DNA of 57,885 bases from NCBI GenBank assembly GCA_013115145.1, contig JAAPAO010000173.1, forward strand, positions 1 to 57,885, written 5' to 3'. This document shows, piece by piece, positions 4,951 through 57,404 of this stretch. The notes under the pieces are model-generated. The model was not told the DNA's origin. It did no database searches and saw only the letters and a list, made by a program, of their open reading frames with translations. This DNA is from Perkinsus chesapeaki. Its lineage: Eukaryota > Perkinsozoa > Perkinsida > Perkinsidae. Positions within the stretch are counted from its first letter, which is position 1. Every line of letters begins with the position of its first letter. The position numbers were made by a program, and so were the translations under genes.

Positions 4951-7716
4951 TCAGGATGAAGATTTGGTACGCTGGTCCTAACAAAAGAGACAACTCTTGC
5001 ACGCACGCGCAACTCAACTTACTTGTAAGACTTGTTTTAGTTCTAGGCTGTCAGCAACGGCATGGCAAAACTCATACGTACCCAACATAATTGCGCACCC
5101 TGGGATGACCTGAAAGTAGCCTCATTCGTATCTTTCACGCTTCAACCTATGATACCTTCAGCAGTCGCGGTCCCAAGCCAACAGTAAATCCGCGAAGACG
5201 ATACTCCTTAAAAATCGCCACCATAGCGGATCCTGTCGTATGAATCCTAAAAGCCATACCATTCCACTCATCCTTCTCACTGTAAAAAGCGCGCGCCCGG
5301 ATGATCGATTTATCCTACGGTGAGCTCCGTATCGACTTAGATATTGTGTGATATAAATTCGTTTGATGACATGTCCGTCCAATCGAAATGTTCCTCTCCT
5401 TCCATCCCACCTCCGCAACCGACCAGCTACACAGGGGCACCCCAAATCGATCAACTGGGCGCGCTTCTTCACTCACCGTTTTGCCAAGTTGGTTTGTTGC
5501 TTATTGGGCCGACTGGCGGTCTGAAGCTGTGTCTTGACCATATCAAATGGATGTGTTGCAGCAGCTGCAATGGTGCCGCAAACTGCGCCGTTAAGGAAGG
5601 AAAACCCAAAAGTTTCAAGCCAAGTTGCGGGTTGGTTAACCTGAAACAAGTACCAAATATTTTCCGAGGAAAGTGTCCGTAATATAGCCAATGGTAGAAA
5701 TATCGATCCTGGGAATCGAACCCTCGCTGGCTGTAGGAGATGCTCAGATCAAGCCAACGAAGAGGAACATCAGCAACTATTCCCCGTTGTGAAATGTTTT
5801 CTAGCAGACTTCCTTTCATATCCCCGCTCGTGTTGCCGTCGCGCCACATGTATCCCGTCTTGCGAGAACGATCGATTCCCCGAATCTTTCAAAACAGGTG
5901 TCATAAAACAAGCTGAATTCTCCAAAGCAATGACTTCAGTAGTATATTTTTTGTTATGATCTTTCGACGACGCGCTTTTACTAAATCGACTTGATATTTT
6001 TCCAATTATACTTAACGATCAGAGAGTCACTTGCCTTCACAAATGCGTTCTTCGGAGATTGAAGTCTTCCTAGTGCTGAGATATAATGTAAATTCAATAC
6101 CTCTGGTGGAAATGCACAGATACCGCGCTACTTGCAGAGTCGCTAAGATTCCACGTGCTCAGTAACTACAATGTGGATTTGACCTTGGGTGACCAAACTT
6201 GCGCGATCGCCCTTCTTCCAGGTTGTCTGCGATATTATATACTCCAGCATGGTCATCTCAATTGGTCATGCTCTCCAAAACCCGCATGACCGTCGTGCTT
6301 TGGAAAATACTCAAATAGACTAGAGAACAGCCTTCTTACTCGCTTCATAACGATAGTGTAGGCATCAAAGGTCTTCCCAATTTAACCCCACAAATATCCT
6401 TCCCAATTTAACCTTTGAAGTATCTTTCCCTATTCAACCTCTAAAGTATCTTTCCCTATTTAACCTCTAAAGTATCTTTCCCTATTTAACCTCTAAAGTA
6501 TCTTTCCGCATTTAACCTCTAAAGTAGCGTTCCCCATTTAACCTCTAAAGTATCCTTCCCTATTTAACCTCTAAAGTATCTTTCCCTCACTACATTAGCC
6601 TGCTTCTCAGCCAGTTCCAGCAGTTCTTCATTATTAGCATACCTCGCCGCTCCACGCCGTTCCACGTGTTCCGGGAGGAATATCTTTTTATTGTACTCGT
6701 AGAGTGACCAATAAATTGCAGAAAATGGCAAGTCCCTGGGGAAGAACAGAAACCATCAAATGGAGTCGCGCACTACCAGCTCGCGGATGTAATACGAAAA
6801 TATACAATGGAAAATGACCGAAAGGTGATCAGTTAGAATCAAGAAAAGTTTACTTTCTATAGGCTCAAACAAACGAAGCGGTGGAGGGACTCATGGTAAT
6901 GTGAGGGGCGATAAGCTGTCATTTAAAAGTTACGAAACTGCTCAAGATTCGGAGTGAAATACTAAAGCTTCGTCCGCTGCGAAATTTAATCTCTATTATA
7001 TTCCACAAGAAGCAAGGTTGAAGCTAAGATATCCTTACTACCTAACCAATGTGGGTAGCAATCCACGCCAGAGACTTGAAAAGGAGTCTTCTCGTAGAAC
7101 TCGCTTAACCGTCGCAATGGCACCCTCGCCCATTCCAGTTGTCGCTTGTACACGCGTACGCAGAAACTCCACTGGAGAGGAAATTATTTCATTTGTGAAA
7201 GTGAAGACTTACAAGGAGAAAACAAAGTAACAGCGGTGGCCCGTGCGGCCGCACTGGCTACTCCATCGGGGACTTTTTCGCGCCAGTGCTCATAGAGCAC
7301 GAAAAAGGTCTGAGGAATATGTTAGGTTGAAGCCTGCAAGATGCAAAATAGGTTGTGTACCCAGTTAGACGGTATTTGGTATACTAGGCTTGTGACTGTC
7401 CCGTTCCATAAGGCTCGCCAACCGTAAGTGCTTTTAATATGTCGCATCACCTGCAAGCCGGTAGTATTCGTTCGCTGATGATTCAGAGCCGGCGAGGCCT
7501 AAAAATATCTTAGCTCCATCCAAGTAAGATAAAGAGCAGGTTAGATCGAGATGCCCTACCTGCCAGTAGTTCTTGACTACATCAAAGGGAGTACAAACAG
7601 CCGTGACGGCAACCGATCCCATTGTAGAGGCCACCATTGTGTACCAGAAGGTCGCCTTTTCGCCATCTGGCACACTCATCTTACAAGGCAACAACGCAAA
7701 CCATAGTTCTAAGGAC
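4951..7716 (-). CDS. Mitochondrial carrier, SLC25A39/40 (MTM1)-like
   Basis: Spliced inner-membrane solute carrier. Decoded exons, 5' to 3': about 7560-7716, (gap), 5477-5640, 5319-5426, 5156-5279, 5023-5109, 4951-4977; phases agree from 5640 downstream. The first exon holds a carrier signature, TPFDVVK. Exon 5477-5640 holds THPFDMVKTQLQ. The C-terminal exons read GFTVGLGPRLLK then VIPGCAIMLGTYEF, which closely matches the SLC25A39/40 ending (GLIPRL..APACAIM.STYEF). Members of that subgroup are linked to mitochondrial glutathione import and metal handling. The segment between 5640 and 7559 should hold further exons; a possible one lies near 5740-5830. The N-terminal start is unresolved: the exon opens after an acceptor at 7717, and the first ATG is at 7679. 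Four of the introns carry repeat modules B (twice, opposite orientations), C and D. Confidence 0.75.
4978..5022 (-). repeat. Module D intron (45 nt)
   Basis: Starts GTAAGTTGAGTTGCGCGTGC and ends CTTTTGTTAG, with the module D dyad in the middle. It leads to a short final exon of nine codons including the stop. Without splicing the frame stops two codons after the donor, so this last junction is less certain than the others. Confidence 0.55.
5110..5155 (-). repeat. Module C intron (46 nt)
   Basis: Starts GTATCATAGGTTGAAGCGTG, then AAAGATAC closes the stem, and it ends CTACTTTCAG. Its removal joins PRLLK to VIPGCAIM, a conserved carrier junction, so the intron call is firm. Confidence 0.85.
5280..5318 (-). 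repeat. Module B intron, opposite orientation (39 nt)
   Basis: The next carrier intron. Here the reverse complement of module B lies at the 3' end: AAATCGATCATCCGGGCGCG followed by CGCTTTTTACAG. Removing it joins a Pro codon to the conserved GFTVGLGPRLLK exon in phase. Confidence 0.8.
5427..5476 (-). repeat. Module B intron (50 nt)
   Basis: Intron of the carrier gene. It starts GTGAGTGAAGAAGCGCGCCC and runs into AGTTGATCGATTTG, ending CTGTGTAG. The same 5' sequence opens HAD intron 33314-33358. Splicing keeps phase 2 between exons 5477-5640 and 5319-5426. Confidence 0.8.
6375..6590. repeat. 26-bp tandem repeat, about eight copies
   Basis: Head-to-tail copies of CCTCTAAAGTATCTTTCCCT plus ATTTAA, the first ones diverged. 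It lies in the undecoded part of the carrier gene, probably an intron. On the minus strand the unit contains AAAGATACTTTAGAGGTTAA, resembling part of module C. Confidence 0.85.
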
Positions 7717-7718
7717 AC

Positions 7719-22339: not shown

Positions 22340-22789
22340 ATGCACATGCCCGCTTTGGTGTGCATCTTATCTCTCATCAATGTCTGGTCTCTGAGCTCTG
22401 CCCTCGATACATATTATCACTACATGACCCACGGGGTGTGTATTGAGGTTTTCTGGCCGTCTCCAGGCATGGTCGTGGATATTATTCGCTGCCGAACAAG
22501 ATACGCCATAGCTGATCCGACATCCAAGCGAATGGAGGTTTCTGGCACCAACCCATACTACATAGCCGAACGAAGTAAAGCGGATTACAATGCTTATGTC
22601 GGAAGCTTCGCGCAGACGTGCAACTTCCCTGGTCCCCTAGAACTATACAAGAAAAGCTTCGGCGAATATATACATGACGGAGTGGTCAACACACTTGCTA
22701 CACTCTTCAATGGTTCATATATTGCTCTGAGGTCTGGCTATTGTGATATGGGATCCTTGGATGATCGATTACAGCAAACTGCACCGTAG
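22340..22789 (+). CDS. Small secreted protein, 149 residues
   Basis: Intronless. A clear signal peptide (MHMPALVCILSLINVWSLSS) is followed by a compact domain with cysteines at GVCIEVFW, IIRCRTRY, TCNFPG and GYCDMG, which could form two disulfides. Not recognised. Its position at the edge of the secreted-gene region fits the same lineage-specific secretome. Confidence 0.65.
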   Translation: MHMPALVCILSLINVWSLSSALDTYYHYMTHGVCIEVFWPSPGMVVDIIRCRTRYAIADPTSKRMEVSGTNPYYIAERSKADYNAYVGSFAQTCNFPGPLELYKKSFGEYIHDGVVNTLATLFNGSYIALRSGYCDMGSLDDRLQQTAP

Positions 22790-26149: not shown

Positions 26150-26422
26150 TGACTGGAATAACATTTTAACAGCGTAAGAATAAACAATATAATCGATCGA
26201 CTGGAATAACATTTTAACAGTGTAAGAATAAACAATATAATCGATCGNNNNNNNNNNNNNNNNNNNNNNNNNNNNNNNNNNNNNNNNNNNNNNNNNNNNN
26301 NNNNNNNNNNNNNNNNNNNNNNNNNNNNNNNNNNNNNNNNNNNNNATAATCGATCGACTGGAATAACATTTTAACAGCGTAAGAATAAACAATATAATCG
26401 ATCGACTGGAATAACATTTCAC
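26150..26422. repeat. 48-bp tandem repeat interrupted by an N gap
   Basis: Units of ATCGATCGACTGGAATAACA, TTTTAACAGCGTAAGAATAA, ACAATATA. Two copies precede and about one and a half follow the N run at 26248-26345, so the true copy number is unknown. Confidence 0.9.
26248..26345. other. Assembly gap (98 N)
   Basis: Run of N inside the 48-bp tandem array; probably unresolved repeat copies. Confidence 0.98.
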
Positions 26423-28195: not shown

Positions 28196-30226
28196 TTTTC
28201 GGATTCGGAACGCTCAGCATTGGAAAATGCAATCAGGAAAGTGATGCAAGAAAAACAATTTCATCCGACGAATTACCGTCGAAGTCAAAAACCAGGATAA
28301 GATTCGCGATTTAGTAAACCATAAAAAATCAGAGTATTCGCAAGAAGTTCGATTGCGTAAAATCTCCAAAGGACAAAACATTTTCTGTCCAAGCGGAGTA
28401 TAGAAAAAAGGTAATCCGAACTTCCCATTCATTTAGTTACATTAGTAACCAAATATGTATATAAGTTACTACTACATAACTACTGTTACTATTAACTACT
28501 AATACTATAATAACTATCTGACTGACAGTTACAAGTTAATACGTACACATATTAAGTTGTGTTTTTCTACTTGAAAGATTATGTATATTCTTATTCGCAC
28601 TGGAAAAATAAGCTGTTCCTTACCTGTTATGCACACTGGCGACGATAACGACGGACATCAGATTTTACAGAGGACCTAAAAACGTACTCACCGGGGATCG
28701 AACCCACGACCTTTAAAGAGACGGAATTTCTTTATATGGATTTGTACTCAGTATCTAGTCGGAAGCATTATAGTGTCATTAGTCGTGATGATATCGAATC
28801 CCCAAGAGGTTAAATTAAGCTAGGACACCCAAGGTAGCTTCGGAAATATATAGATTTCGTTCGAGACTGTCGAAATCAGACATCCCGAGAAATCTATGAG
28901 TAACAAAAAATATCGATTATAGTGGGGTATCCGGCCTGTCTCATGGCGTAGGCAGAATTCTACCGCGGATCAATCTGATATGACAACTACCTGAACCCGC
29001 CCCAGCGACGCCCCTATACTGGTCGAAGGGGACAGGTTGCACAAAAAGAAGAGAAATTATGACAATCTCGCGACGATATCACAGTAAAATTAGAACGATT
29101 GACCAGCCAACTAGCTCAACAGTGGGAGCCGGCTCGATTGGGAGGAACCAAAAAGTAATCATTTGTATCAAGGCGATTGGGAACCTCTATTTCTCTTCAG
29201 TGATATAAAAATAGGTGGTGGAAAAGGAAAGGATATTGGCAAGCAATTCATCAATCTAACTAGATTCTAAACCGCCCTCTAAACGCGTGCAGATTGTGAC
29301 AGTTCCAGTTTTTGATTCCGGGCGAGCGAGATTTTCAGCAGTCACATGACAGTTTATATCAGTATCGTAAAAAAGTTGTTCTCACAAAATATCAAGCCCT
29401 AGCTCTTTCTCGTCAGTAGTTTATGCTCAAAAGTGTAGAGGTCGTATTATTTTGTGAGGGGGTTTATATCAACAATTTTAGTGTGGAACAATCACTCCAT
29501 TGAAATATATTTATATATTTCAGAGCAACTCAATCATCAAACATGCCTACGCACTGAGTTAGTCCGGCAATAGTGACTTGTGGTATATCCTCTTCATCAG
29601 TAATAATCCTGAGATACTAATCGATCACGTGATCGATTTAGAAATAGTTTACCTGATCTTAACGAATTTGTTTCGACTAGAATGTCGAGGCGGTGTCTTT
29701 CCGGCCACATCGCTATCGGCGACTTTGCGCGGTTTCAAACGGGAAGACTCAGCAAGTAAGGACGACCTGAAAATGTATCTTAGGTTCAAGCTTGCAGTTC
29801 ACATTCGAGCCTGAAGATACTCACTTATCGCTGGCACTTTCAAATTCATGACGGTCGCCGATTTTACGGCAGCAGCCAGCTATCGGCAAACAACACAGAG
29901 GTTTGGGCCTGAAGGAATCTTAGGTTGAACCGTGCAAGATATAAAACATGTCAAAACATGTCAACTTGTGTCGTTCACATTTCGCGAAGCTTCACAGGAA
30001 TCTCAGCTTGAAGCATGCAAGATGCGCCAGATGTTAAAACGACGCCTTTCTCACCTAACCCCGTGCCTGTCGCCTTCGTCTTCAACAACAATCAGTTTTG
30101 GCCCACATCGCGGTCCTACTTCTCCCTGACCACAAAAATCTTTGCAGTGCGAAAAGATACTCCTCACCTTCGTATCTTTTAAATCACTCACTGAGGGTTC
30201 GATAATCGGGGAGAATGCCATCTTAG

Positions 30227-30440
30227 AGAACAAAATCTTCAAAGTGTGGAAAGATAAAAAACAGAGACAAATCTTCACAGTGCCGAAAGATACGAAACAG
30301 TGAAAAATCTTCACAGTGCGGAAGAATACGAAACAGTGAAAAATCTTGACAGTGCAGAAGGATACGAAACAGAGAAAAACCTTCACAGTGCGGAAAGATA
30401 CGAAACAGAGACAAATCTTCACAGTGCGAAAAGATACACT
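30227..30440. repeat. 36-bp tandem array of E-type hairpins
   Basis: About five or six units containing AAATCTTCACAGTGCGGAAA followed by GATACGAAACAG. Each unit folds as ATCTT-cacagtgcg-AAGAT. Because the unit is divisible by three, the minus strand translates as an apparent 12-residue protein repeat; I treat that as an artefact. Confidence 0.85.
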
Positions 30441-31818
30441 TCAAACTCAACTCAGCAACATACTTTAACACACTTCCACGAAATACCTTCATACTTAATG
30501 TCAATGTAAAAAGCGCTCGCCCGATTGATCGATTATTTATTAGTAAAATAAAAAAGGAAATATATAATAATAAAGGCATGCACGTGCGGTAATCCTTTCA
30601 CCCGGGTTCGAATCCCAGCGGCGACATCAATTCAGCGACTTGGACCGTGCAGGGCGATGCATGCCAAAAATTATTATATAAAAACAGCCGATCGATTTAA
30701 TGAAACGGCTAAAAGATATAATTCGCAAATCGATCAAGTGATCGATAAATAGAAGATTAAAATTTACCTGAAAAAATATCTTTTCCCAATTTATCAAGTT
30801 TGGTTTACCTCATGAAGTTGAACGCCTCGGACGGGCGCCGGTAGTGAAAGAATCGACTAAAATCCTGAAGAAGACGGAATCGATCACGCGATCGATTATA
30901 CTTCATACTTGATGATCTGGAATTTTGAGATTTCTAATTAAGCATTCATTCGGCCTTTCGCCAGCGGGGAGATGTGTTACTAGTGCTTTAGCGTCCTCTT
31001 TAAAGGGAGTCCTCCTAATGGCAACTCTACCAGTTCTTCCTCATTGCGACTAGGGATAGATACCTCCGCAAAGATCCCAAGCGCAACGCACTGTGAAGAA
31101 TTATATAACTCTGCACGCATGCGCAATTCAGCGCCTCCCAAATGGCAACTACAGGAGCCCTTTTAGGAAAAACCTGTGAAATTGGATTCTATTTTCTAAT
31201 GAAAGATAAGCTAATCACAGACTTTGCAACTCGCAAATGTCGCAACGACTTCGTATATCAATTACATGCCAGGGGTGTCTTCCCAACACAAAAAATTTGC
31301 ACGCATGCGCATGCGGCACAATTCCAAATATGCGTTTCATTCAGCTGTTCAAAACGCGAGTTCTCGGACATGGCCACTCTGTCGGCGAGCCAATCCCATG
31401 GAAGCTCACCCACGGCGGTCTCAAACTTTTTAAAAAGGACACTAAGTCATCAAATAAGGGGACAGACTACACAATCATCTTGCACGCATGCGCAAGTGCA
31501 ACCTGTTTGAACAGATCAGAAAAATGTTGTGAATTATTTTGCGAGATTTGTCGTTGCAAAATATCTGTGAAAGTTCGACCATTTCTCGCACTGTGAAGAT
31601 TTCCGATCTTACTCGACTCGTCGTTTCTCAGTTGGTGTCCTCGCCGAATTCGATCGATTTCGAATCACCAAAGCAGGCAATCTGAACATCTCCGATCCAC
31701 TAAAAACAGATAAATACAAAAATGCCAAACATGGAACAATTTTACAGCGGAGCGTTGCATTCATCAACAACGATAACGGTCCTTCTGCTTGAAGCGAGAG
31801 ATGCATCCTAAAAGGAAC

Positions 31819-32064
31819 AGTATCTTTACGCACTATAAAGATTTTATTCGGTATCTTTACGCACTATAAAGATTTAATTCGGTATCTTTAAGCACTATAA
31901 AGATTTAATTCGGTATCTTTACGCACTATAAAGATTTTATTCGGTATCTTTACGCACTATAAAGATTTAATTCGGTATCTTTACGCACTATAAAGATTTT
32001 ATTTGGTATCTTTACGCACTATAAAGATCTTATTTGGTATATTTACGCACTATAATGATTTATC
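31819..32064. repeat. 31-bp tandem array of E-type hairpins
   Basis: Eight units of GGTATCTTTACGCACTATAA plus AGATTTAATTC, each with the stem ATCTTT...AAAGAT. Confidence 0.92.
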
Positions 32065-33148
32065 CCACTCACATTCAAAGAAGATCGCCTTCTCATCATT
32101 TTCGTTTTTATTTCCGCGAGGGGCAGAGTCGGCACGAAACTCGATGATGGCATTACAGATGAAAAACAGTTAACCTCAAAAATATCTTAGCGCTCCCTCA
32201 TGAGGCATATCTTAGCTTAAAGCGCGTAAGATACAGAAAATGTCACTCCCTCGCCTACTGTATACACCAGAATTTTCACGACAAAGATAAAAAATGCGAA
32301 AATAAATTTGACACGATACACACAAAACATAGTTCCGTATGTCTCTTTATTTGATGCTCGCATCAACCTAAGATTCTCTCAGAAGTAATGCACTTGATTT
32401 TCTCAGTTAAAGATGTTAAGAAAATTTCTCAACGTCTTTAAAGAAATATGTTTATATGTTTGTATATATAATTCATTTCTTAAAGGAATAATTAAAGTAT
32501 TCTTCCAACAGTGTTGTTCATCCTGCGTCACGAAAAAGGCCACGTGCTCCTAGATTGAAAGATATAATGGAAACCTGACTTCCGAAAGACTATTCCCGAA
32601 CAATTTTTCCCAAATTTTTCCGAAATTTTTCCGAAATTCTTCTGAATAAGTACCCCAGCGCTGTCCCATTCGCACAATATCAAAGCAAAGCAGTCATTAA
32701 ATTATTTCCAAAAATGTTTAAACGAATAAATTGCCCTGAAGTAATATTTCAACAGATTGCCAATTGAAATCTCAACTCAACACATTCGATCATTTTAATA
32801 CTACTAGAGCGCCGACCAGCGAAATGAAAGAATAATAACGTGCACAAACAGTAGGTCGAGCAGTGATATAAACAACGTATCTTTTATCGATCACCTGATC
32901 GATTTGAACCAGCAAAACCAATCAAACCAACTTCATCATCTCTACACAGTCTCCTTATGAATTTAATACTCATCAACTGCACATTCGGGAGTCGGTTCTT
33001 CCCGCCTTTCGATCGGTTTGGTCATTTGGGGCGGAGCGGCTTCGTTGGTGAGAAGCTCGAGATCGAGTGCTCCGTCATGCTTTACAATATGCTCTGAAAG
33101 GCAGTAGCTGACCCATTATGTATCGTGCATGCTTCAACATAAGATATT

Positions 33149-35947
33149 TCAAGCGACACAGTTGAATAAACCGAAAAAACTAGAATAGCCTCCCTCAACT
33201 ATCAAATCGATCACGTGATCGATTATCACTCACCGAGCGATTCCGTCAACAACTGAATCTCATTTCCTAACTGCGTCAGATCAGGTTTCAACAGAAACTT
33301 CACAGACTTCATCCTGATCGAAACACAAATCGATCAACTGGGCGCGCTTTTCACTCACCAACTGTTCGCAGTTCTCCTCGTGGGAATGTTGCCAAGCGTG
33401 ACTCTCATCAAAGCCTCACGCTCATGCGGGGAATCTCCAATAGAGATAACGTTCCTCCACGACCTGAGGAAATATCTTAGCTCGAAGCGTGCAAGGTACA
33501 CAATAGCTCAACTCGTACCTATGCATAGCCGAGCTGTTCCAAAAATTAACCGCTGTGCTTGACGGTTGCTCAAGAAACTGTGGCCCACTCCCACTAACAG
33601 GCGTCGCACCTTGGAATTCATAATCGATCGCGTGATCGATTTGGATACTCACATCTCTGACCGTCAATGATATCCCTAAAAGCATGTGCCTTCCACCCCG
33701 CCGGGCTTTTTATTCCCGTATGCTCAAACGCACCTAAAATGACAACAAAATCTTGCAATCTTGCTCTTCCTTCCATTTCCTCAACGCAGAAAACCCTGTT
33801 CCGCCTACTTCTAGCACTGCAAATCTGAACTGCCAAATCTTGCAAAAGTGGCTCCAACGAGGGAAGCCATTTTCGGCAGGAAAGTTCAAACCATCCATCC
33901 TGAGGGAAAAATATTTTTCGCGGAAAAAATCTCAGTTTTTTTCTCAGGAAAAATTTATTGAATAATTTTTACATAATTTTTCCAAGAAAAAAATACCGAA
34001 ATTTAAAAAAATAATTCCGGTCAAGTAATTCAACTGTCTCCAATACTCGTCCCCAAGAAAGGAACAATTTTCCCGGAAATTTTCCGGGAAAATTTGGGAT
34101 TTTTTTTCATACCAGAAATGCTATACATCATATTTCCATGCACGCATTGAAAACATCACTTCGCGTTTCAGATTTACTTTTTTAATTTTCCAGAAATTTT
34201 CCGAAAAATTTCCGAAAATTTTCCGAAAATTTTCTGCTCACCTGCGCGTTTGTAACAATGACGACCTTCCCCAACGAAGCGGCAACGCGGACCATCTTAG
34301 CCGCCATTTCAGCGAGCTCTGCCAAAGGGTCGATGAACTGCTCAGGTACGAACGGATCGCAAACCTAAATAAATCCGTGAAACGAAACTCGCTTCGCTCC
34401 GCTAGAAAATGCTTCTCTATTGTGGATACAATGCGAAAATGAACAGCTTCGATTCGTTTTTTTCAATGGGAAAGTTGCAATGAATACACTTGCGAGCATA
34501 TAGAAATGTGCAAAACATCTCCGGCAGATTTTTAGGCGAATTCGGAACTTCTCGCGGATGTGAAAATTATTGAGAGCAGAAAGATTTCGCGGAGGTTGAA
34601 TTCCCGAAAAACAAGATTTGGCTGAACAAATTCAAGAGAGATCCAGAGCGGTTAAAGTATTAAGGGCACTGGCAGGCTCGGAAAAACTTAGGAAGAAAAA
34701 ACGCTTCGCTCCGCCTTACGTTCAATCCATTTAATTTCGCCCAAGTGGTCGGACAAATAGTATCATCCCAATCAAAGATAACCAAAGTCTGAGCTCGAGC
34801 TGGCGTGCCTGAAAGATACTTTTGAGCTCAACTTGCCTGCACCCCTTCTACTTGGTGTGGCAGCACAAGCCTCCTTCAAAGGAGTCGGAGTGGCGCCAAC
34901 TGCAGTACTGAAAAAAAAGAAATTTTTCCACGGAAAAAAATACGAAAATCACCAAGGAGGAATCTGGAATAATTTCAAAAAGGTGAAGAAATGTTTAAAA
35001 AATATATTGTAACATTCAGGGTTCAAATGAGTGAAAAATTATCACACGAATCTTAGGTTGATTCTTGCACCGAACAATCTGAAGCGATTTGAACAGCAGT
35101 AAAATTTATTAAATTTCGAAATCCTAAATGTTCGTGATCGGCGAGCCAACTTGACATTGAGAGACGTAACCCCCGGATGGCATGGGAAAGTTTTGGTAGA
35201 ATTAAACTGGCGAGAGTTCTTCCTTATTGATACCATCCAACTTTTAAAACTCCCCGCTTTACCTTCCATTTGAGATATCCCCTTCTTTCTCCTCTCCAGG
35301 TGTCATAGGTTGATCCGCGTCTTTTTCATCTCGCAAAGATTCCTTTGGTGTCATCATGACTCGACTGCGACTCTCCACATGGGGAAATGTTGCTGTGGGG
35401 AAGTCTGAGAGTAATATCGATCGTTTGATCGATTTCGAACTGACAACGTGTTATACTGCTATGTAGGCCTTTTGGAATATCGATCACGTGATCGATTCAC
35501 AGATCAATAAATTCAACCATACTGTCTCCCTAGACTTATTTTACAATATCGATTACTCGATCGATTTGCTCAACCTACAGTTATTCTGATCAGTTCTATG
35601 ATGATCCTCTCCCAGCGGACTCAACACGTCTCGACTCTCATCCTCATCACTTCCGAACACCATCGGGTCTGAATCTAACTCTAGGCATCTACGGGTACCT
35701 GAATCGATCACGTGATCGATTTAGAACAGCTAACCAAGCTAACGGCTTCGGCATATCCTAGGTCCGACCTTGCAAGACGAATAGAACTCCAATCAAAAAG
35801 GAATATAAAACATATCTTAGCTCGAAGCGTACAAGATACAAGATAGCTCAATTCCCTACCTCTCCCCGGAACAGGTGTACTCTGCTGAAGATCTTCCATC
35901 GAAATCGGTTGCTCCTCATCAATTGATTTTTCCTCGCCGGCAAACAT
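33149..35947 (-). CDS. HAD-superfamily phosphatase, 14 exons, 390 residues
   Basis: Exons 35860-35947, 35579-35698, 35501-35521, 35448-35468, 35263-35404, 34837-34907, 34720-34808, 34242-34364, 33809-33899, 33653-33733, 33519-33609, 33359-33463, 33234-33313, 33149-33198; phase agrees throughout. HAD motif I is IFDWDDTICPTTW (nucleophile Asp), motif II is VVIVTNAQ, then GWFELSCRKWLP, GIKSPAGWKAHAF (motif III Lys) and motif IV NVISIGDSPHEREAL. These match a protist/algal HAD group. The N-terminal ~125 residues are acidic, Pro/Ser-rich linker. Exons 3 and 4 (21 nt each) lie in unconserved sequence, so their splicing is the least certain. At least eight introns carry modules A, B or C. The start at 35947 lies 23 nt after an AG that follows a module A palindrome. 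Confidence 0.8.
33314..33358 (-). repeat. Module B intron (45 nt)
   Basis: Starts GTGAGTGAAAAGCGCGCCCA, continues GTTGATCGATTTG and ends TTCGATCAG; the 5' part nearly matches carrier intron 5427-5476, more than 27 kb away. Removal joins TANSW to MKSVKFL, which fits the HAD family. Confidence 0.85.
33464..33518 (-). repeat. Module C intron, reverse orientation (55 nt)
   Basis: Starts GTACGAGTTGAGCTATTGTG, contains CTTGCACGCTTCGAGCTAAG, and ends TTTCCTCAG. Removal produces the conserved SWRNVISIGDS block. Confidence 0.88.
33610..33652 (-). repeat. Module A intron (43 nt)
   Basis: Starts GTGAGTATCCAAATCGATCA, then CGCGATCGATTATG, ends TTCCAAG. It joins DGQR to CATPVSGSGP in phase. Confidence 0.85.
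34809..34836 (-). repeat. Shortest decoded intron (28 nt, GC-AG)
   Basis: Starts GCAAGTTGAGCTCAAAAGTA and ends TCTTTCAG; it looks like a truncated reverse module C. It must be removed to keep phase between the Ala/Pro-rich exon and the DWDDT exon. Confidence 0.6.
35469..35500 (-). repeat. Module A intron (32 nt)
   Basis: GTGA + ATCGATCACGTGATCGAT + ATTCCAAAAG: the palindrome makes up more than half of the intron. Confidence 0.6.
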
Positions 35948-35970
35948 GCAAAACCAATCACCACCCAAAA

Positions 35971-35994
35971 CTACAAATCGATCACGTGATCGAT
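35971..35994 (-). promoter_or_regulatory. Module A palindrome with AG, 23 nt before the HAD start
   Basis: ATCGATCACGTGATCGAT then TTGTAG; the AG (35971-35972) could act as trans-splice acceptor for the HAD gene, which starts 71 bp after the THUMPD stop codon. Confidence 0.45.
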
Positions 35995-36018
35995 TTCACC
36001 AAACCCAACCCATCATTC

Positions 36019-37296
36019 TCAAGAAACCTTTCCAATCCGTCTCAAAGGCGCCCGCAAACTACACTTCATCGCAGCCCACTCAGCGCGCCCTCCCTCATGT
36101 TCCCATTCAAATCTGTGCGTCGCTCCGCTAAATTGTGTTGCATGTTTCACATTTTCCTTCGACACTATCGTAACGATCGCCGACGGCATTTCCCCCAATT
36201 TTATTTTTCTAACATGGACGACTTTCCATCCTTCGACAAGCGAATCTTCCACGATTTCAACCAGATCCTCTTTTGTCAGAAGCACCTAAAAAAGCTATAC
36301 CAAATCGATCAAGTGATCGATTATTACCATAACACCCTCTCGTCTGCAAACCCTGCCAAATTCGGCCAACGTTCGCCGATAAATATCTTCCAATTTCTCA
36401 GGGTCTCCCGCGCACCATTGAACTCCAAACGGCAGGTCCGAAATTATCAAATCAAAAATATCTTTTCGGAAATTCAACCTCCGCGAATCTTCCAAGATTC
36501 CATCCACTTTCGCATCCGCAAGAAAATCCAAATTCGCCAAAAATTTCGTCATCTGTTGCCGACTAGAATCGCTTCCGATCGCCCAACTCCCTCCACTCCG
36601 CTCAAAAATCGTCGCGCCAGTTCCACAGAACGCATCCAAAACAGTCAGGTTACCAATTTCTTGCGCGCCACAAATTTCTGTTATGAACCTTGCTTGCCTA
36701 TTCATCGCCCAGGCCACAGGACCAGAGAGACCAACACATTTTCGCTCGCCCGATTGATCGATTCGAACCATCACGGGAATATCAATAATAATCCAATCAT
36801 CATTCATAAATATCCTCACCACAACCTGCGGTTTAGGGGAAACTCGCGCTTGCCACGTTTTCAACCTCTCGGGTATCATGCACGCTGCAAGCTTAGATAC
36901 GTCAAATGACGATATCGATGCGAATCTCTTCCCTTTCCTCTGAGTTTCGACCTTGAAATCGATCACCTGATCGATTTTCGCATCCATCGCCGTTCTCACT
37001 TTCTCATCGACTCCTTCCCAATCTACACCATCCAAATAATCGCGTATCTTTTCATGTGGATAATCCTCGCTTGAAGCTTCGCATAAAAGATTCAAACAAA
37101 TCTTTTCCTGCAATTTTATATCCGACTTCAATATTTCAGTCAAATCGCCATCGAAATAAATTCTCTGTCGAGGTCCGGAAAAAATTATTTTTTCCGAATT
37201 TATTTTTTCCCGGATTTCCCAAAGCGCACGCGTGCTCATTCCAACACCTGTGCTAAACGTCGAACAAAACTGCGATGTAATACGAGGAGCTGGCAT
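36019..37296 (-). CDS. THUMP-domain tRNA guanine-N2 methyltransferase (THUMPD2/3-like)
   Basis: Two exons, 36328-37296 and 36019-36285, 411 residues. The N-terminal part fits THUMP-type tRNA-binding regions (FCSTFSTGVGMSTRALWEI...). The C-terminal part is a Rossmann methyltransferase: SAM motif VLDAFCGTGAT, acidic motif WAIGSDSS, and catalytic-type ISDLPFGVQW (D/N-L-P-F-G is typical of THUMPD/Trm14 enzymes making m2G). The intron 36286-36327 carries module A. Within the long exon, module-like sequence is translated in frame at three or four places (IDQVIDF near 36958; the module C-like stretch near 36870-36897; RIDQSGER near 36750; a module G-like stretch near 36661), so unrecognised 3n introns or exonised copies are possible. 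The start at 37296 lies 9 nt after an AG next to a module A palindrome. Confidence 0.82.
36286..36327 (-). repeat. Module A intron (42 nt)
   Basis: GTAATA + ATCGATCACTTGATCGAT + a T-rich tail ending CTTTTTTAG. Removal joins EGVM to VLLTKEDL in phase. Confidence 0.9.
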
Positions 37297-37305
37297 GAAA
37301 TAAAG

Positions 37306-37332
37306 CTAATCAAAATCGATTACGCGATCGAT
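37306..37332 (-). promoter_or_regulatory. Module A palindrome with AG, 9 nt before the THUMPD start
   Basis: ATCGATCGCGTAATCGAT, then TTTGATTAG; the AG (37306-37307) could act as a spliced-leader trans-splice acceptor. It lies in the short gap between the upstream gene's stop and the ATG at 37296. Confidence 0.45.
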
Positions 37333-37433
37333 TTGCCCAATTATCATCAACACAAAACACTTCTCATCCAACACCTAGTAAATTTCGTTAAAAAAACATA
37401 TCCAAGCTCCAAGCATGCAAAGTACAAAATAAC

Positions 37434-40400: not shown

Positions 40401-43400
40401 GGCTAAGAGGTAGCCCAGCTGTGAGCCTGCTCACCAGCGATCCACAGTGTGGATCCACGACATGCTTAAAAGAACGTGCTCCATCGACCGAGGCTATCTA
40501 AGTTTTCCCAACACGGAACAAAAGGTCAACATAGTGGGATACTCCGGAAGATGGAAGATACAAACCTTCTACTCTATAAGGTTCGTCGAGTAGTCCTGAA
40601 TGTTAAGCCTGGGCTATGGAGTTGTTTCTCATGTTTAACATAATTAAACTTATAATTTTTTCCAACATGCGAAACAACTCCGACACCAGTTATAGTTTAA
40701 CTGCAAAATCTGCTATGAAAATTATCAGACTTAATTCTACATGAGAAGTCCAGATTAGCTATCGAAAAATACAAACGGATATCTTCAGTTGAGCTAACTG
40801 CAAACTAAGTGTAAGATTTTCATCTTCGGATTTCAAACCACCACTCAGTCCGCATGCCGTCTCATCCCACTTGTATCAGTAGAATCTCCTGCGTCAGCTC
40901 CTCAATCTTATTTTTATCTTCATTCGTCGACGACTCTGCCTTCACATTCTTACTTTTCGATGCACCGTCCGACGCCGGTGCTGTCGACTGAACGAACAAC
41001 CGAACTCCAAACCACAGGAGGGAATTTGGCGCATAGCATCTCAAAGTTACCCATAACAGATGATCGACTGTGAGACTACATGGGCTACAACGGTAGGAGG
41101 GAATTAAGTGAATTCCTGAGACGCCGGTTGCTGGTGAAGCTCCAGTGCTGTGTTAGCTACCAATTTCTTCACGTGAGCCTCCATGATTTTTTGGAACAGC
41201 GGCAATATTCGGCTACATAACTTGTAACGATTAATGGACTGTATGGAATCCCGAGCTTCACCGTGCACGATACGTTTTAGGTTAACCTTCCCTCCCTTGT
41301 TTACCCCTCCTTTCCTTTTCAGTTCCCTCTCCAATTGCCGCACGCGATCATCCAGCTCATTCGCTTTCTTCTGAATCTCCACCTTCTCCAAACGTGCTCT
41401 AAATTGTCATAGAATAGTCACGCGCCACAAAATTACTTTTCTGCATCCCTAACAGCTTGGGCTGCTTTTGCCTCGGCAGCTTTAACGACTTCATCAACCT
41501 AAAGACATCTTACCTTGAACCATGCAAGATACGAAATAGCTTGCCTTCTGATCCACCTTTCCTTCAGTTTTCTCCTTCTTGACTTCCTCAGCAGCTGGTG
41601 GTGGCGGCACCGGAGCCTCCGGAGGAGGCGGTTCCTATTGGAAAAAATAATAACCAAACCGCGGCGAAATTCTGCAATACGTAACAAACGATCACAAACT
41701 ATACGACATTGGTAATTTGGATCGCCACGTTTTCTAACTCACTTTATTATTTTTTAACTCACTTTATTATTTTTTAATTCACTTCATTATTTTCTAATTC
41801 ACTTTATTATTTTTTAATTCACTTTATTATTCTTTAATTCACTTTATTATTTTTTAATTCACTTTATTATTTTCCAATTCACTTTATTATTTTTTAATTC
41901 ACTTTATTATTTTCTATCCGAATGCTACTTCAATATTACCTTATCCTTCCCTCCACTCGTCGCCTTAGCTTTCAACTTATCCTCATATTCCTTCTTTTTC
42001 GCCTCCAAGGCCGACATAGTAGATTTAGCCGCCGCCGCCGGAGCATCTTTACCTAACCCAACCCCTTCTCTATCTTGCACGCTTTAACCTAAGATACCAT
42101 CTTCCATGTTTTCCTTAGGTGGTGGTGGTCGTGCTTCTACTGGCGGCGCAGCAGCTTCCTTATTCTCTCCCTCCGACTTGTCTGCCGCAGCCGCTTTCGC
42201 TTTAGCTTTCGCCTAAGATACTCCAATCCACTTCGGTGGCCACTTCCAAGCAGTATTTTACTAACACAGATTCACCCAACCCCAGCAAAATGTGTTTCTC
42301 TAGGGAAGGCAAAAATTGCTCTAGTAGAGAGAGATGAAAACTGTAAGCGTAAATCTCACTAAAAGCTCCACGGACGACGACAGACACTGCTTCATGCAGA
42401 TGGATGGAAAGATTATCAGACAGCAATATCGGAATTTTACTGCATCCCCAATAATTATGTAATAATAGACTTACCAGGATTCGAACCCATGCCTACCTTC
42501 GCTTTAGCCTTTCCCTTCGCCTTGGCTTTCGGCTTAGTTTTCGGTTTCTCCTCCGCTCCGGCATCTGCCCCCTCTGGAGGCTTGTCCGGTCTCTTCTCCG
42601 GCGGCCCAGCGGTCGGCTTCGGTCCCAAATCAGTTTCACTCGCCACGAAACTATTTTCAAATCCTATCGACGCCCCGTCTGACAACAAATGCGTCCGAAT
42701 CATTTATCGTCTTTTCCACCAATTCACGCCTCAGCGAAAGTAGCAAACTATCCTCCACGAAAAATATTATATTTATATTATACAATAATAGCCCTTCGCG
42801 GCGTGCCACTCTAGCGTCGTTTGACGCCGTCGAAAGGCCCTTGCGGCAATAGACAACACTACTGCCCTGCTGGAGCAACCTCCAGATAAGTAAATATAAT
42901 AATTTATACTGGATACCATATGAAGTCCGTGTATATTTATTTAACATATAAAGCCCATCACATCCATCTTATTGCTTATAACGCATTTTTCCTTCCTTAT
43001 TTTCCCTATCACCCTCACATACACCTAATCCGAGAAAAACTAATTTTCACGAAAAAAATCCTGAAAATTTTTCCCTCCCGAATTCCCTTAGTACCTTCTC
43101 CAACTACCGCCAAATTCTGTTCCTTCATCTCTCCAGGAATCACCACCTCAAAAGTTGCGCCCTTCTCCTTCTCTCCCGACCAGCTCAGCGTCAGTCCCAT
43201 TTTATTACACATATTCTGTATCATATTCAACCCCAGACCAATCCCATAATACGTCTCCGGTTGCGCCCGATAAAAAGGATGATTTAATTTCTCCTTCTCT
43301 TCAGCTGTGAATCCACAGCCGGTATCAGTCACCACGAACTTCAAACCGTCCCCTTCCGGCGAAGCGGAAAGTGTCACCTTGCCTGAAGTTAATATTACTA

Positions 43401-46400
43401 TAATACGTGCTTATCTACCGTATCATTATATATACTCTCCCCGAACTGGAGAGCGACCTCCTATCACACATAACGGGGAAATGTCAGCTCTTTGATAGCA
43501 TCAACAAGCTGAGATGCTCGTCACCAACAATCCCCTCATCAATAAAGTATTAATCACAATTTTCGTGATAGTGATAATTCATAAGTAGTAAAATTACGAT
43601 AAGTGCATCAACGAACGTCCGGAAAACAAATGAAATAAAAACAACTTTCCTAAATTCATTCCTGTATATCCCTCAGCCTTCGTGCACTAAATCACTCGGT
43701 CACGCGCCACGAAATTATTCCTCACTCCCTCACCTTCAGCAGTGAACTTCAATGCATTGTCTGCCAACTGATAGAAAATTCTTCTCAATCTATTAGGGTC
43801 TTGCTTAACCTACAAAATGCAGGATATCTTTCGCACTATAAAGATTTTCCATCCAGAAAAGATACCTTTCGCACTATAAAGATTTTCCATCCATAAAGAT
43901 ATATTTCGCACTATAAAGATTTTCCATCCATAAAAGATATCTTTCGCACTATGAGGATTTTCCATTCAGAAAAGATATCTTTCGCACTATAAAGATTTTC
44001 CATCCATAAAAGATATCTTTCGCACTATAAAGATTTCTATCCTACACAGTTATTATTTATTACCATAGGTAGTCCCTCACTCGGAACTTCATTAATAAAT
44101 TCAACTTTATCCTTCTTCATCGGCTGCCCTCTTTTATCTTTCGCTTCCATCAATTCATTAAAGCAACTCGAGACGATCGGACCGATATTGACACCTTCCG
44201 CCGGTGCAGAGTAGACGAGGAGAGGCTCTGCTGCTAAACAACCATCACGAATAAGTGACATAACCTGACAAGGATGAATCTTTGCTTCAAGCGTGCATGG
44301 TATGTGAGAGGTTAAGTATTGCCTATACGGCTAATGTCCAGGTGAGCAATTTGAATCTAGTGATCATATCGAATTCGGAAAAGATCGTAGAGCTAGTATC
44401 ACATATAATTCACACGATCTAAGAAAGAATCTTTGCTCGAAGCGTGCACGATAAGCTGGAGGTCGAGTGTTGACCATAATAACTGCCCAGTGACAAGCAG
44501 ACCTATTATCGTCTCCGAATTTCCCAATTCTCAACCACCCTAGATTCCACGTAGTATCCAAGCTTGAACCATGCAAGATCCTCCCAAGCTCACCTCAACC
44601 ACCCTTATACCACACCTATATATCATTCCCAATTGCTTCTGCACCGGTTTCTTCGTCTCAGTCTTTATCAATACCTCCGCCACCCCCGTAATCCCCAAAT
44701 GCGGCGTCACCAGCATATGAGCTAGATGCCCCAATCCTCGCTTCTGCATCAGCCACTTCTGACCAACTCCATCCTTCTCGCTCCAATAACCAAAGCCCTC
44801 CACACCTTTCTCAAACTCTCCCTCAATCGCAACATCATTTTTGGGCAACCAAATCTCAAAGATACTTCCGAGGTCGACTTGAGAACTCCTCACAAAAATC
44901 TTTCCCCCACATATCTTTTCAATACCCTCCTTCGCAGAGCTCAACCCCAACCCCCAAGATTCACCGTCATGATTGCAAGTCGCCTTATTATGGTATCCAG
45001 GCCGCAATCTCACCCACGGTTCGAAAATTCTGGCCCATTGATTTTCCGGAATGCCCAGACCAGTATCATGAACGCATAAAACATAATACTCCGGCTCTTC
45101 GCGAGAGGTGCAAATGACGTGCCCTTTTTCGGTGAATTTCAACGCGTTGTGGATCTGAGAAAGGCTTATATAGCGCGGCGGTATGGCACTGCTTTCCAAA
45201 CCTATCAATGCGTTTCCCGCACAGGTTCGTTTCTTGCGTGAGGCCTTTTTTAATTAATATCGATAATTATACAAATAATGTTATCATAAAAGTCATTCTC
45301 CGGAATAAGCACAAAAAAATGCGGGTCCTTATGGAACAGAATCGCGAAGTGCACGCATCAACCTAAGATACCCTCCTTTTACCACGGCATAAATCGCCTT
45401 AGCAATATGAGGTTCACTTCCCTTCACAACTGGTCCATCGTCGGTCCATCCTGTTTGATTTTCAATCGCAACTTCATCTGATTTAGTTGGCGAATCGTTA
45501 TTGTCCAAGCCGAACCTTAAAAAATACACCACCCGGGGATCGAACCAGGGACCAATATACTCTCAACAATCCAAAAGTTTTGAACATATTCGACAGATCG
45601 ATAGAAGATCCTTGAGGTTGAAATGTCAAAGGTGGTGTTATAACACTATAGTTATGCAACAGCTATCATAACCATAGCAAAGACAACGATAGTAATATTA
45701 AACCACAGCAAAGACAACGATAGTAATATTAAACCACAGCAAAGACAACGATNNNNNNNNNNNNNNNNNNNNNNNNNNNNNNNNNNNNNNNNNNNNNNNN
45801 NNNNNNNNNNNNNNNNNNNNNNNNNNNNNNNNNNNNNNNNNNNNNNNCAACGATAGTAATATTAAACCACAGCAAAGACAACGATAGTAATATTAAACCA
45901 CAGCAAAGACAACGATAGTAACCACAGCAAAGACAACGATAGTGATATTAAACCACAGCAAAGACAACGATAGTAACATTTCAGGTCAAAAGGGCACATA
46001 AAACCCGTTCATGATGGGCCTAAAATCTACTGTTTCCCAATAAAATGATTTTCGCCGTCGAAGTAATCATCTTTTACTACTTCATGAGCTCTACGACTTC
46101 CTCTACGACCCCGCCAAGTTTAACGTCCTCCTTCCTTATCTTCATCCACCCCTTTGCCAACTTCTCGCTCACCACATTCTCCTCGACCAACGCGCAGAAA
46201 CGTGCACCAGCTCTGAAACGGTAAACCAAGTAGATGAATTTGCTTCGCCTGGAGGAGTAATCGGTCTGCCCCCCTCCAACGAGAATTCTTGTCAAGGTGT
46301 GTAGTAAAACATATGAGACCAGAATAATTAATATCAGTAGTAATCATAATAAAGTTTATGAGCTATGATAAACTATAGATGACTCTTATGTGACCCAGTA

Positions 46401-54483: not shown

Positions 54484-57404
54484 CAGCGACGGTCCTAGCC
54501 GTCATTGGAGGAGATAGATTAACACGTGCAGTGGCCATCACTGGCGATGCAATGGGCTTAACCTGAAAGAGTATACCTGTTCCCAATGCTTTGTTTTAGA
54601 GACACAGGGGTCTGTTACGTCCTGTACAATATTGGTGGCCCACAAATTGTAAACTGTTCAACATACGAGTTGCAATGTAAAATATACGTATCAGATTGAT
54701 AAGCATATACAGTGTGGGAATTACTGTCACTTCAATCGCCTGATGCCTGTAGACAGTTAAGTCTTTAAAGGGAGGATTTCGGCCAGGGAAAATCTTTTTA
54801 GTTTCTGCTGGTAACCACAAGCTTGCATTACGACACCGCTTCACGAGGATGCACCCACGATTAATAAAGTTCGAGTTACCTTACCCTCGCTTCCCATCGT
54901 GGACTCAACAGTGCCCTCGCGATGGCACCGACACGCTGCTGCAAGCAAGATACCAATTCAAAATCTCATCACAAAAGTCTCACTTTGTTCGCGGGAGTCT
55001 GTACTATTCCTGGCGGAATCTGAGGGATTCCAAACGCCGAACTGAGGGCGTATAAATGAGGTGGACCTTCACGGAACCGTTTTGAGCACAACAGATGGTA
55101 CCTGAATGAGCACTGGTGCGCAATTAAACGCTACGGAATCGGCCCCTGAGATTTGTCCCACCTCACACAATTATTGTCCCCGATTCAGAAATTTAGAAGT
55201 TGACCTATCACCGCACGGTTGTATTTTCATCGATTTCGGTTGAACTAAAACGTTCCAAGAAGTTTCCGGCGAAGACCCGAACTGAGTTTCTGGTTGCCAC
55301 TGACGGCGTTCGACTTCGAACCAGAGGGAAATTCGATCGTCTCCGTTGGCACTTACGCTGTCGTGGCATGGTTTTTCCGTCCATTAATCAAATTTTGGAT
55401 GACATCGTTCGGAGGGAACCCAAGAGTCCCCAATTCAGCCAAGACTTCTTCATCAAATTGGCCCTGAAACACCATTACCGTGCGCCGCAAAATTGCCATT
55501 TCCCTACCGTATAATAATCACTATGCTGACGAGCATATTCACAGAGACGGCAACCACGCACACCGCAGTGGTCGGCTGGGGTGCCCGGTGGGAGCAGCAG
55601 CTTTGACGATGCCGGATCGACGATGGGTGATGCAAATTGACTATTCGGGTTTTGGCATGCACGCGTGCACATAGCGTCTTACCCGCGCAAAAATGGATCC
55701 GTTTTCAAGAGTGTCTCGAAACTCGGTCGTTCGTTTGGATTGCTTGTGAGCATTCGAAATATCAATTGCCGAACTTCTGGAGACGTTCGGTTTCGACTGG
55801 GCACCTGCTCGGGCGGAAAATTTTTTTCGCGAAAATTCCGGGAAAATTTTCGCACCTCGAAGCTTCCATTTAAAATCTTCTTGTAGAGTCTTCCTGTATT
55901 TTGGTCTTCAAATGGTAGGTGTCCGCAAATCATTGCATACAGAATTATCCTAAATAAAAAAATCCCGAAATTCTCTCGCAATTTTTTTACCCGACGCTCC
56001 ACACGTCGCATTTTATAGGGTTGTATGGTAAACCCGCGACCATCTCCGGCGGAGCGTAGCACGGCGATCCGCAAGCCGTTCGGAGCGGCTGGCCGGGCAA
56101 GAAGAAGTTGGACAGGCCGAAGTCGGCGATTCGGATATTGTTGTCTTTGTCGAGCAGGAGATTCTCCGGCTTGAGGTCACTGAAAGATACCACGGTTTCG
56201 TTAGCGTGCGTATGCGTGCAAAAGGAGATACAGTGAACATATCGGTTCGCGAATATCTAATTTAAAATAAGTGTTCGGTTCGTTTGAATGTACGATTCTA
56301 CTATTCTCGATAATAAGTGACTTGGATGTCGGAGATCGAGCTTCCATTGTGGAAGACATGTTCGTAGCGCTAAGAAGACGTTCGGAACGTCTTGGACGTC
56401 CTCCTCGCTAGGAGGAACGTCACGTTTCTCCTAGCAACACTTGAAGCTCATCTCACATCCGTGGTTAAAACTCATTTACTCATACTTCGCACTTCGTGGT
56501 AAAAATATCCTCCTGGTGATTCGCTCGAGCCTCATTCTCGCGGTCCATTCCCGAACCGGTTGTTCCGCGTATGAGATGTCCCACTACTATTTCCAATCGA
56601 ATTGCTTACCGATGCACCACATTGTTCCGATGAATGTGACGAACGCCACATACAATTTGCCTAAGAAATTTGCACGCTTCGGACTCGCAGATCTGAAAGA
56701 AAGATACGGTATGAAAAAGTTTTTCAGGCAAACCGTTGGTAGCAAAAATTCTTTTAAGTATATCTTTCAAACGTTTCTTAATCAGGACTAGTATTTCAAG
56801 CGTACATTATAATATCACACACATTTACCCTACCGCGTATTCCTTTCTTTACGTGCAAGTCTGCTTTGACACCACATTGTGAATTTTAAAATGTTTTAGG
56901 CAGGAATCGAACTTACGACTCTTGGTGTGTTAAATATACGCTCTACCGCTTGACCATTTATACTCCACAATAAACCTACCCTTCCTTTATCCACAATGTA
57001 ATCGAACAACTCCCCTCCACTTGCGTACTCCATAACCATAAATATCTCCCGTGGAGTTTCCATTATCTCAAATAGTTGTACAACATGCGGCGACCTCCGC
57101 AGAGATCGTAGGATCCTAACCATCAGCACGTGATGACCGCTGCGCCACGAAATTGCCCACCTCAGTTCCCGGGTCACTCGTTCTATATCTCCTGGTGTGA
57201 GTATCTTGTCTTTTTCGAGTATTTTAATCGCAACTTTTTCTCCTGTTAAAATGTGCGTTCCTGTGTGATGTTCATACCGACTTTTTCTCTCTTCGCGTTT
57301 CTTTTCTCACCGAGTTTAACCTTCCCGAACGTTCCCTCTCCGATGGTTTTTCCGAGCACGTATTGAGCCAAAGGTCTTCGCGGCGTCGAAATTGATTCGA
57401 AACA
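54484..57404 (-). CDS. SNF1/AMPK-like Ser/Thr protein kinase, partial
   Basis: Exons 57311-57404, 57161-57260, 56980-57115, 56610-56692, 55991-56179, 55856-55949, 55683-55804, 55508-55640, 55357-55463, 54984-55101, 54885-54938 and probably 54484-54562, all in phase. Kinase motifs: GEGTFGKV, VAIK (Lys), RELR helix C, VVHRDLKPENLLLD, IADFGLSNFF, ACGSPCYAPPE, DVWSVGIILYAM, RMLTSNPNERPS. After the kinase come a Cys-bearing linker and a UBA-like segment, ELGTLGFPPNDVIQ...NHATTAYHLL, the SNF1-family arrangement. Role: energy-stress or polarity signalling, by homology. The 5' part has one more likely exon near 57463-57530 (GRVVGDRWKDWM); the true start and end lie outside what I could decode. Introns carry modules C, D, F, G and a tRNA-like sequence. 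Confidence 0.88.
55464..55507 (-). repeat. Module G intron (44 nt)
   Basis: GTAGGGAAATGGCAATTTTG, CGGCGCACGG, ending GTGTTTCAG; removal opens the UBA-like exon. Confidence 0.8.
55641..55682 (-). repeat. Module D intron (42 nt)
   Basis: GTAAGACGCTATGTGCACGC, GTGCATGCC, ending CCGAATAG. Confidence 0.8.
55805..55855 (-). repeat. Module F intron, 51 nt and stop-free
   Basis: GTGCGAAAATTTTCCCGGAA, then TTTTCGCGAAAAAAATTTTC, ending CCCGAGCAG. It is 17 codons long without a stop, but kinase homology (NGSFE joined to VPS...SPEVRQLI) requires removal. GTGC is repeated at both ends. Confidence 0.88.
56896..56965 (-). other. Pseudo-tRNA inside a kinase intron
   Basis: The minus strand reads an A box TGGTCAAGCGGTAGAGCG and a B box GTTCGATTCCTG about 30 nt apart. 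The T stem has mismatches and the acceptor stem does not pair, so it is a tRNA-derived relic, not a functional tRNA. Confidence 0.6.
57116..57160 (-). repeat. Module G intron, 45 nt and stop-free
   Basis: GTGGGCAATTTCGTGGCGCA, ending GCTGATGGTTAG. It is 15 codons in frame, inside kinase helix C; removal restores RELRILRSLRRSPHVVQL. Confidence 0.9.

Follow-up and report, generated by a model that had tools for sequence, protein, structure and literature searches.

The origin of introns and of the sequences inside them is a long-standing question, and a contig of the marine parasite Perkinsus chesapeaki raises it in a particular form: did the short modules that recur in the introns of unrelated genes create those introns, or did they enter introns that already existed? 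The window, by which we mean the whole 57,885-nt stretch analysed here, is a single contig of the P. chesapeaki assembly (35.4 Mb, 884 contigs). Perkinsus has a compact genome with about 2,000 counted, mostly intronic module copies, and belongs to a group adjoining the dinoflagellates, where introners are known. A sequence-only reading of the window had proposed that the modules, acting as non-autonomous elements or hairpin templates, mass-produced the introns in which they lie.

The module families were drawn from a repeat search of the window together with reading; the letters A to H are our own and may differ from those of the sequence-only reading:

Module A: GTATCTTAGSTTSAASCRTGCAAGATAC plus a tail around AGGTYA; ends GTATCTT/AAGATAC, with GT at the terminus
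Module B: ATCGATCANNTGATCGAT, palindromic
Module C: TGCGCATGCGTGCA
Module D: AATTTTCCGGAAAATT-like
Module E: TATCTTTNCGCACTRTRAAGATTT, palindromic
Module F: AAATCGATCANCNGGGCGCGCGCTTTT; no terminal inverted repeats; its reverse strand starts GTAAAAAG
Module G: GCAATTTCGTGGCGCR; no palindrome, no terminal inverted repeats, no hairpin
Module H: T-arm-like

As for the terminal inverted repeats typical of MITEs, A has inverted-repeat ends and B and E are palindromic, with F and G showing neither trait; the dyad symmetry once ascribed to the modules in common does not extend to G. Across the 35.4-Mb assembly, the six families A, B, C, E, F and G occupy at least 2,108 places, against 7 for reversed-pattern controls. 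By family, the counts are at least 241 for A (118 and 123 by strand), at least 345 for B, at least 315 for C (171 and 144), at least 189 for E (113 and 76, some in tandem) and at least 162 for F (81 and 81), each with a control of 0, and at least 856 for G (399 and 457), with a control of 7 (4 and 3). These counts rule out a repeat confined to this locus. With fixed mismatch limits, a 316-kb set comprising the window, 20 random stretches and nine stretches chosen for modules holds 51 copies of A, 88 strand hits of B (44 places), 15 of C, 37 of E, 22 of F and 18 of G; its reversed sequence yields one module match (C). The repeat search also located denser accumulations in the window:

30136..30437, minus strand: an E copy and an E tandem array of 36-nt period
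31821..32061, plus strand: an E tandem array of 31-nt period
29614..37338, no strand assigned: a stretch rich in B palindromes, with 13 listed copies

The E-type arrays differ in period, with 31, 36 and 38 nt (the last in an E-like variant) in the window and about 30 and 35 nt at C288 and C493. The inner nine bases of genomic A copies take several forms, including the mutual reverse complements GGTTGAAGC and GCTTCAACC; it looks as though the centre of A might flip.

That modules lie within introns is supported by an AMPK/SNF1-like kinase gene on the minus strand (55.4-57.4 kb), which when spliced encodes a 355-aa protein aligning to AMPK (E 3e-79). Its residues 41-355, which cover seven of the eight introns, are identical to an NCBI P. 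chesapeaki protein model that may itself be a prediction (100% over 89% of the query), and homologous proteins of P. olseni and P. marinus are 74-78% identical. All eight introns are GT-AG; four short ones and two long ones carry modules or related pieces:

57116..57160, minus strand: 45-nt GT-AG intron with module G (GCAATTTCGTGGCGCA, sense)
55464..55507, minus strand: 44-nt intron with module G
55641..55682, minus strand: 42-nt intron with a C-like module (GCACGCGTGCATGC)
55805..55855, minus strand: 51-nt intron with a D-like palindrome (GCGAAAATTTTCCCGGAATTTTCGC)
56693..56979, minus strand: 287-nt intron with a tRNA T-arm/B-box-like stretch, in which Rfam finds no tRNA
56180..56609, minus strand: 430-nt intron, a C-like module lying close to the 3' end

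Comparable introns are found in other genes of the window, with homology or reading as their support:

5110..5155, minus strand: mitochondrial-carrier intron with module A; junction within the Mito_carr match, exact ends by reading
5280..5476, minus strand: mitochondrial-carrier intron with two F modules (5285-5311 and 5444-5470); the domain match spans the junction, exact ends by reading
36286..36327, minus strand: 42-nt THUMP/methyltransferase intron with the palindromic module B; the domain match spans the junction
43383..43733, minus strand: 351-nt histidine-kinase ATPase intron, module G lying close to the 5' end; junction covered by the HATPase_c match, ends by reading
43810..44063, minus strand: intron consisting largely of a 38-nt tandem array (43823-44048) of an E-like module, 1 nt shorter than E; ends by reading, the junction falling just ahead of the HATPase_c match
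42053..42097, minus strand: 45-nt intron with module A, the terminal GT of which is the donor; frame joined by reading, no homolog

The 'at least 25' verified introns of the sequence-only reading are a plausible figure beside the 28 module introns that a lenient gene model (see below) places in the window, where two of the eight gene models listed score below 8, but homology backs only eight short and two long ones, in four genes. At another locus (L032), domain matches (HATPase, guanylate cyclase) span the junctions of one F and two B introns, and these, with two in NAD-kinase genes, bring the homology-supported short module introns checked to 13. Of 20 exact G copies, those that head the genome list once the window's own are set aside, 17 read by eye as GT-AG introns of 26-58 nt and three were left unassigned; 14 of the 17 keep at least 20 open codons on either side. 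Near 41.5 kb of the window (minus strand), an antisense A copy would by reading need a GC donor (GC-AG). The genes at 8.3-24 kb and 47.5-52 kb, secreted-protein-like and by reading in one case pepsin-like, read as largely intronless open frames with few modules nearby. Minisatellites of 26 and 35 nt, unlike the modules, lie at 6348-6633 and 53055-53334, and runs of N inside tandem repeats at 26248-26345 and 45753-45847 are probably assembly gaps.

The splice competence of the module places was scored with a model trained on the 17 G introns picked by eye and four kinase introns, by scripts that admitted only GT-AG introns. Modules score higher than random positions of the same loci for A (Mann-Whitney p 4.5e-10), B (1.4e-6), C (7.5e-4) and F (5.9e-9), and marginally so for E (0.026); the copies exceeding the 90th percentile of random places are 25 of 51 for A, 15 of 43 for B, 3 of 15 for C, 5 of 25 for E and 10 of 22 for F. 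A gene model with splice sites, codons and length as its only scores was then applied to the window and nine module-rich loci, under strict and lenient settings chosen after the first settings had given an excess on reversed sequence (1,766 versus 1,280 and 2,195 versus 1,697 on the real one). It predicts 140 introns, 40 of them with a module, under the strict setting (reversed sequence 0) and 329, 78 with a module, under the lenient one (reversed sequence 35), figures that are not genome rates, since the nine loci were chosen for their modules. The lenient model puts 93 of 151 copies in predicted introns, against 45.0 expected, and 10 in predicted exons, against 52.5 expected; for the strict model the figures are 51 against 22.8 and 10 against 36.7. 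In 200 kb of random sequence, 5 of 540 predicted introns carry A, B, C, F or G, and the 365 predictions on its reversed sequence hold no module. As these predictions include many false introns, we use only one feature of them, a clear excess of module-free introns at 40-50 nt. Modules are not a requirement of introns: away from module-rich regions, most of the predicted introns carry none. Overlap with long open reading frames did not separate modules from random places. Ab initio gene finding by codon usage alone had no power: retraining ran away, and GT-AG stood barely above decoy dinucleotides. Gene finding worked only once the splice-site weights had been learned from G introns.

Copies occur in both orientations relative to the gene, with sense/antisense counts of 20/28 for A (3 unclear), 7/15 for F and 11/6 for the 17 G introns; the six antisense cases dispose of the idea that G is always sense. 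As RNA-based copying should keep one orientation, this argues against spliced intron RNA having been the only template. To this extent the earlier reading is borne out: there are several families, spread genome-wide, mostly intronic, in both orientations and in some cases with inverted-repeat ends. The copies agree over a core of 16-40 nt, beyond which the flanks are nearly unrelated and share almost no information. Of the marks of introners, sequence shared by many introns of unrelated genes is found for the core only, and end-to-end similarity of introns within a family is absent, the flanks differing among 20 G loci. No target-site duplication survives correction in any of the six families (A n=51, B 44, C 15, E 25, F 22, G 18), in a scan of 1,875 combinations per family that would miss old, decayed duplications; the smallest uncorrected p values are 8.1e-5 (E) and 1.5e-4 (A).

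Compensatory change in the stems is nearly absent, with two-sided Watson-Crick changes versus one-sided breaks standing at 2/79 in A, 1/12 in B and 0/15 in E, and one assumed inner pair of A forms in 19 of 51 copies through a one-sided change. These figures for A, and the lack of any hairpin in G, tell against the suggestion that hairpins served as templates. Constraint within A is uneven, some positions being almost invariant (chi-square 73.1, 23 df, p 4e-7, four polymorphic sites excluded). Under the strict model, median intron lengths are 44 nt for B (n=13), 48 for F (n=5), 64.5 for A (n=10) and 56.5 for G copies other than the exact ones (n=6); exact-G introns, taken by eye, have a median of 45 nt (n=17). 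The claim that the module is nearly the whole intron holds for some A introns of 49-50 nt and for one 26-nt G intron, but not for the B and exact-G introns, each with about 25 nt of non-module sequence. An intron length independent of module length fits B, F and exact G but not A or the other G copies, and we do not rely on it.

A few copies appear to have entered coding sequence. Cores of B, A, F and a G-like module lie within a single 314-codon open frame (36.66-36.98 kb) of the THUMP/methyltransferase gene, which does not bear out the assumption that all module copies are introns:

36664..36975, minus strand: cores in a single frame free of stops and probably exonic (B 36958-36975, A 36873-36900, F 36743-36763, G-like 36664-36676)

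No frame-keeping GT-AG intron around the B, A or F core scores above 5, a threshold that we set ourselves; around the G-like core, one candidate scores 5.3 but would delete VLDAFCGTG, which is kept in homologs. The gene model instead places here a 33-nt intron ending inside B, which improves the THUMP match (18.8 bits against 16.1), so that B may be partly intronic at this place. The homolog P0126 has similar peptides at B and F (IDHVIDF, RIDQSGGRK), and its A and G stretches diverge with hardly any change in length. Part of this exon match could be coincidence, as the F peptide overlaps what we take to be a motif conserved in such methyltransferases.

The relative age of introns and modules can be approached through paralogs and relatives. 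In two tandem NAD-kinase paralogs (locus L031, C59:13001-21000; positions by reading), LNEC(V/L)IAR is followed by a shared intron of identical phase, which in one is 43 nt long and carries F and in the other is about 195 nt long and carries two B, though the latter might instead be a pair of introns flanking a short exon. One intron further upstream, the two positions agree to within one codon, with B in one paralog and A in the other. A P. marinus protein (95% identity over 98% of the query) lacks residues at the second intron position, which fits the removal of an intron there as read. Only the NAD kinases were informative among the paralogs examined, and a search for a second long match to window positions 36-40 kb, as an allelic contig with an empty site, found none. 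Two further positions come from protein models of relatives. One of two P. olseni kinase models reads KVRRNNFVARDDFF, which is G-like, at the site of a P. chesapeaki G intron (55464..55507), and P0126 reads SEIDHVIDL, a B-like peptide, at the site of the B intron (36286..36327). These relatives, known here at the protein level, seem to carry B and G read through into peptide, and their proteins are 57-78% identical to those of P. chesapeaki. It would follow that at least some intron positions predate their present modules, or that the modules are old and were kept. Mass production of introns by the modules is not established and is in part contradicted by the negative search for target-site duplications, by the NAD-kinase positions, by the apparent keeping of the family in relatives at two introns and by the coding exon that seems to hold four module cores.

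We tentatively favour, at somewhat less than even confidence, the reading that modules were written into pre-existing short introns at the DNA level and turned over there; we rank it above introners, and these above selected elements. At least six families of 16-40-nt motifs would be copied as DNA in either orientation, leaving no detectable target-site duplication. The copies would enter mainly introns that already exist, replacing or displacing the interior without loss of the splice sites or of a length that can be spliced, and one module could supplant another at the same intron position. The copy-in step, which we infer together with its driver, might be a patch-like repair or conversion, or an insertion followed by compensating deletion. 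Some copies, judged by the read-through peptides, seem to predate the split of the Perkinsus species, and a few would appear in frame in a coding exon. The match of B introns (median 44 nt) and exact-G introns (median 45 nt) to the 40-50-nt excess of module-free introns speaks for this turnover; against it, the medians of A (64.5) and the other G (56.5) are as plain insertion would give, and the uneven constraint inside A could mean function. The common paralog positions could also be repeated hits at favoured sites, with one paralog pair and two read-through positions as the whole sample. The choice of the 17 G introns by eye, the many copies that stay below the 90th percentile of random places and the rarity of modules among the introns predicted in random sequence weigh on the same side. 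The 26-nt G intron, being nearly all module, fits intron creation better than turnover, and both it and the 49-50-nt A introns could be such creations. Extending creation to the whole set gives the introner explanation, in which non-autonomous elements of several families, spreading in bursts, created each intron by insertion into an exon. This we regard as somewhat unlikely, even though the same core lies in introns of unrelated genes, A ends in a terminal GT within its inverted repeats, the reverse-strand start of F (GTAAAAAG) serves some introns as donor, splicing looks feasible in both orientations, the longer A introns fit, and published introner families have medians from 30 nt and can be without target-site duplications (PMC9860276). 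It would have some 25 nt of each B or exact-G intron come from exon despite the intact kinase protein, with no surviving duplication, and it sits uneasily with paralogs whose common positions hold different modules, with modules apparently common to relatives and with similarity limited to the core.

The seeming retention of B and G at corresponding introns of relatives, the uneven conservation of sites in A, and the intron excess and exon depletion of the copies would all be expected if the modules were selected cis-elements, that is, binding motifs or structures kept in introns for splicing or chromatin, with interchangeable families. Yet the non-palindromic A and G occur in both orientations, most introns have no module, stems show hardly any compensatory change, copies lie in coding frame, and motifs of 28-40 nt seem too long for convergent origin; on balance this explanation is distinctly improbable. 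Highly improbable, in our estimate, is the idea that introns received the modules as copied pieces of small-RNA genes (tRNA T-arms, snRNAs). A B-box-like motif does recur, at 23 places for a stricter pattern (0 on reversed sequence) and at 85 with one mismatch, a count without a control; E2 and G each reach a shuffle p of 0.010 against one U5 gene, uncorrected over 18 comparisons; and G by eye presumably resembles part of U6. However, once the number of comparisons is allowed for, no similarity to the U5 and U2 of this genome holds up, and ARAGORN and Rfam call no tRNA in the window or the two stretches tested, leaving a small-RNA origin unsupported. No recognisable tRNA head with the A and B boxes of tRNA-derived SINEs turned up there either, B-box-like stretches alone being found, with an A-box-like match in 3 of the 16 in the window. 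The Rfam U6 model matched nothing in this genome or in control genomes. U2 and U5 snRNA genes lie at C487:17856-18062 and 22576-22687, with a second U5 at C665:92074-92195. An intergenic stretch of the window (49130-49240, minus strand) reads like a whole tRNA, with D-arm-like and T-arm-like parts, and is not called by ARAGORN or Rfam.

If the modules mainly replace the content of old introns, introns can come to resemble each other, which is the usual sign of gain, although none was gained, and any count of introner-derived introns would have to be checked for position. We consider it unlikely that the whole picture holds together, namely a process overwriting short intron DNA, and occasionally exon DNA in frame, with a few motifs that are copied in either orientation, leave no insertion footprint, are swapped in place and persist across species, so that what introns contain turns over and no introns are gained.

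In the open-licence literature on introners, Perkinsus introns and palindromic introns, none of the titles and abstract openings listed describes such modules in Perkinsus. Rickettsia palindromic elements are likewise short palindromic repeats found also in frame within coding genes, but they are bacterial, exceed 100 nt and involve no introns. The introner families surveyed across eukaryotes have median lengths from 30 nt, some without target-site duplications or terminal inverted repeats (Gozashti et al., 2022; PMC9860276), and resemble the Perkinsus modules in the similarity of introns between unrelated genes and in DNA-based spread; the main text of that survey does not name Perkinsus. They were found by BLAST of introns with their flanks (E 1e-5) and taken as intron gain, whereas Perkinsus introns are alike in the core only and their positions can predate the module. 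The symmetrical stwintrons of Hypoxylaceae, for which a repair-based spread has been proposed, are also palindromic, proliferating and intronic, without short flanking duplications, but they are longer (93 and 207 nt in the examples given), globally highly similar and seamless at new positions (Fekete et al., 2021; PMC8469720).

Amoebophrya, like Perkinsus a parasite of the dinoflagellate line with many-family repeated introns, has 252 and 1,954 families of introner elements (Farhat et al., 2021; PMC7789003), beside which the number of families here, once thought unusual, is not so. As in some Perkinsus modules, its elements have hairpin-forming inverted repeats, and a transposable-element-like spread was proposed for them. 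As that account defines them, they lie within non-canonical introns that are bordered by direct repeats of 3-5 nt and end in inverted repeats, the introns analysed being 40-1000 bp long (Farhat et al., 2021). In contrast, the Perkinsus modules form a core inside introns of mostly 26-60 nt that are canonical GT-AG, the only type our scripts allowed and the type of all eight kinase introns, and that show no direct repeat. It is in core-only similarity, free orientation and swapping in place that the Perkinsus modules differ from the Amoebophrya elements.
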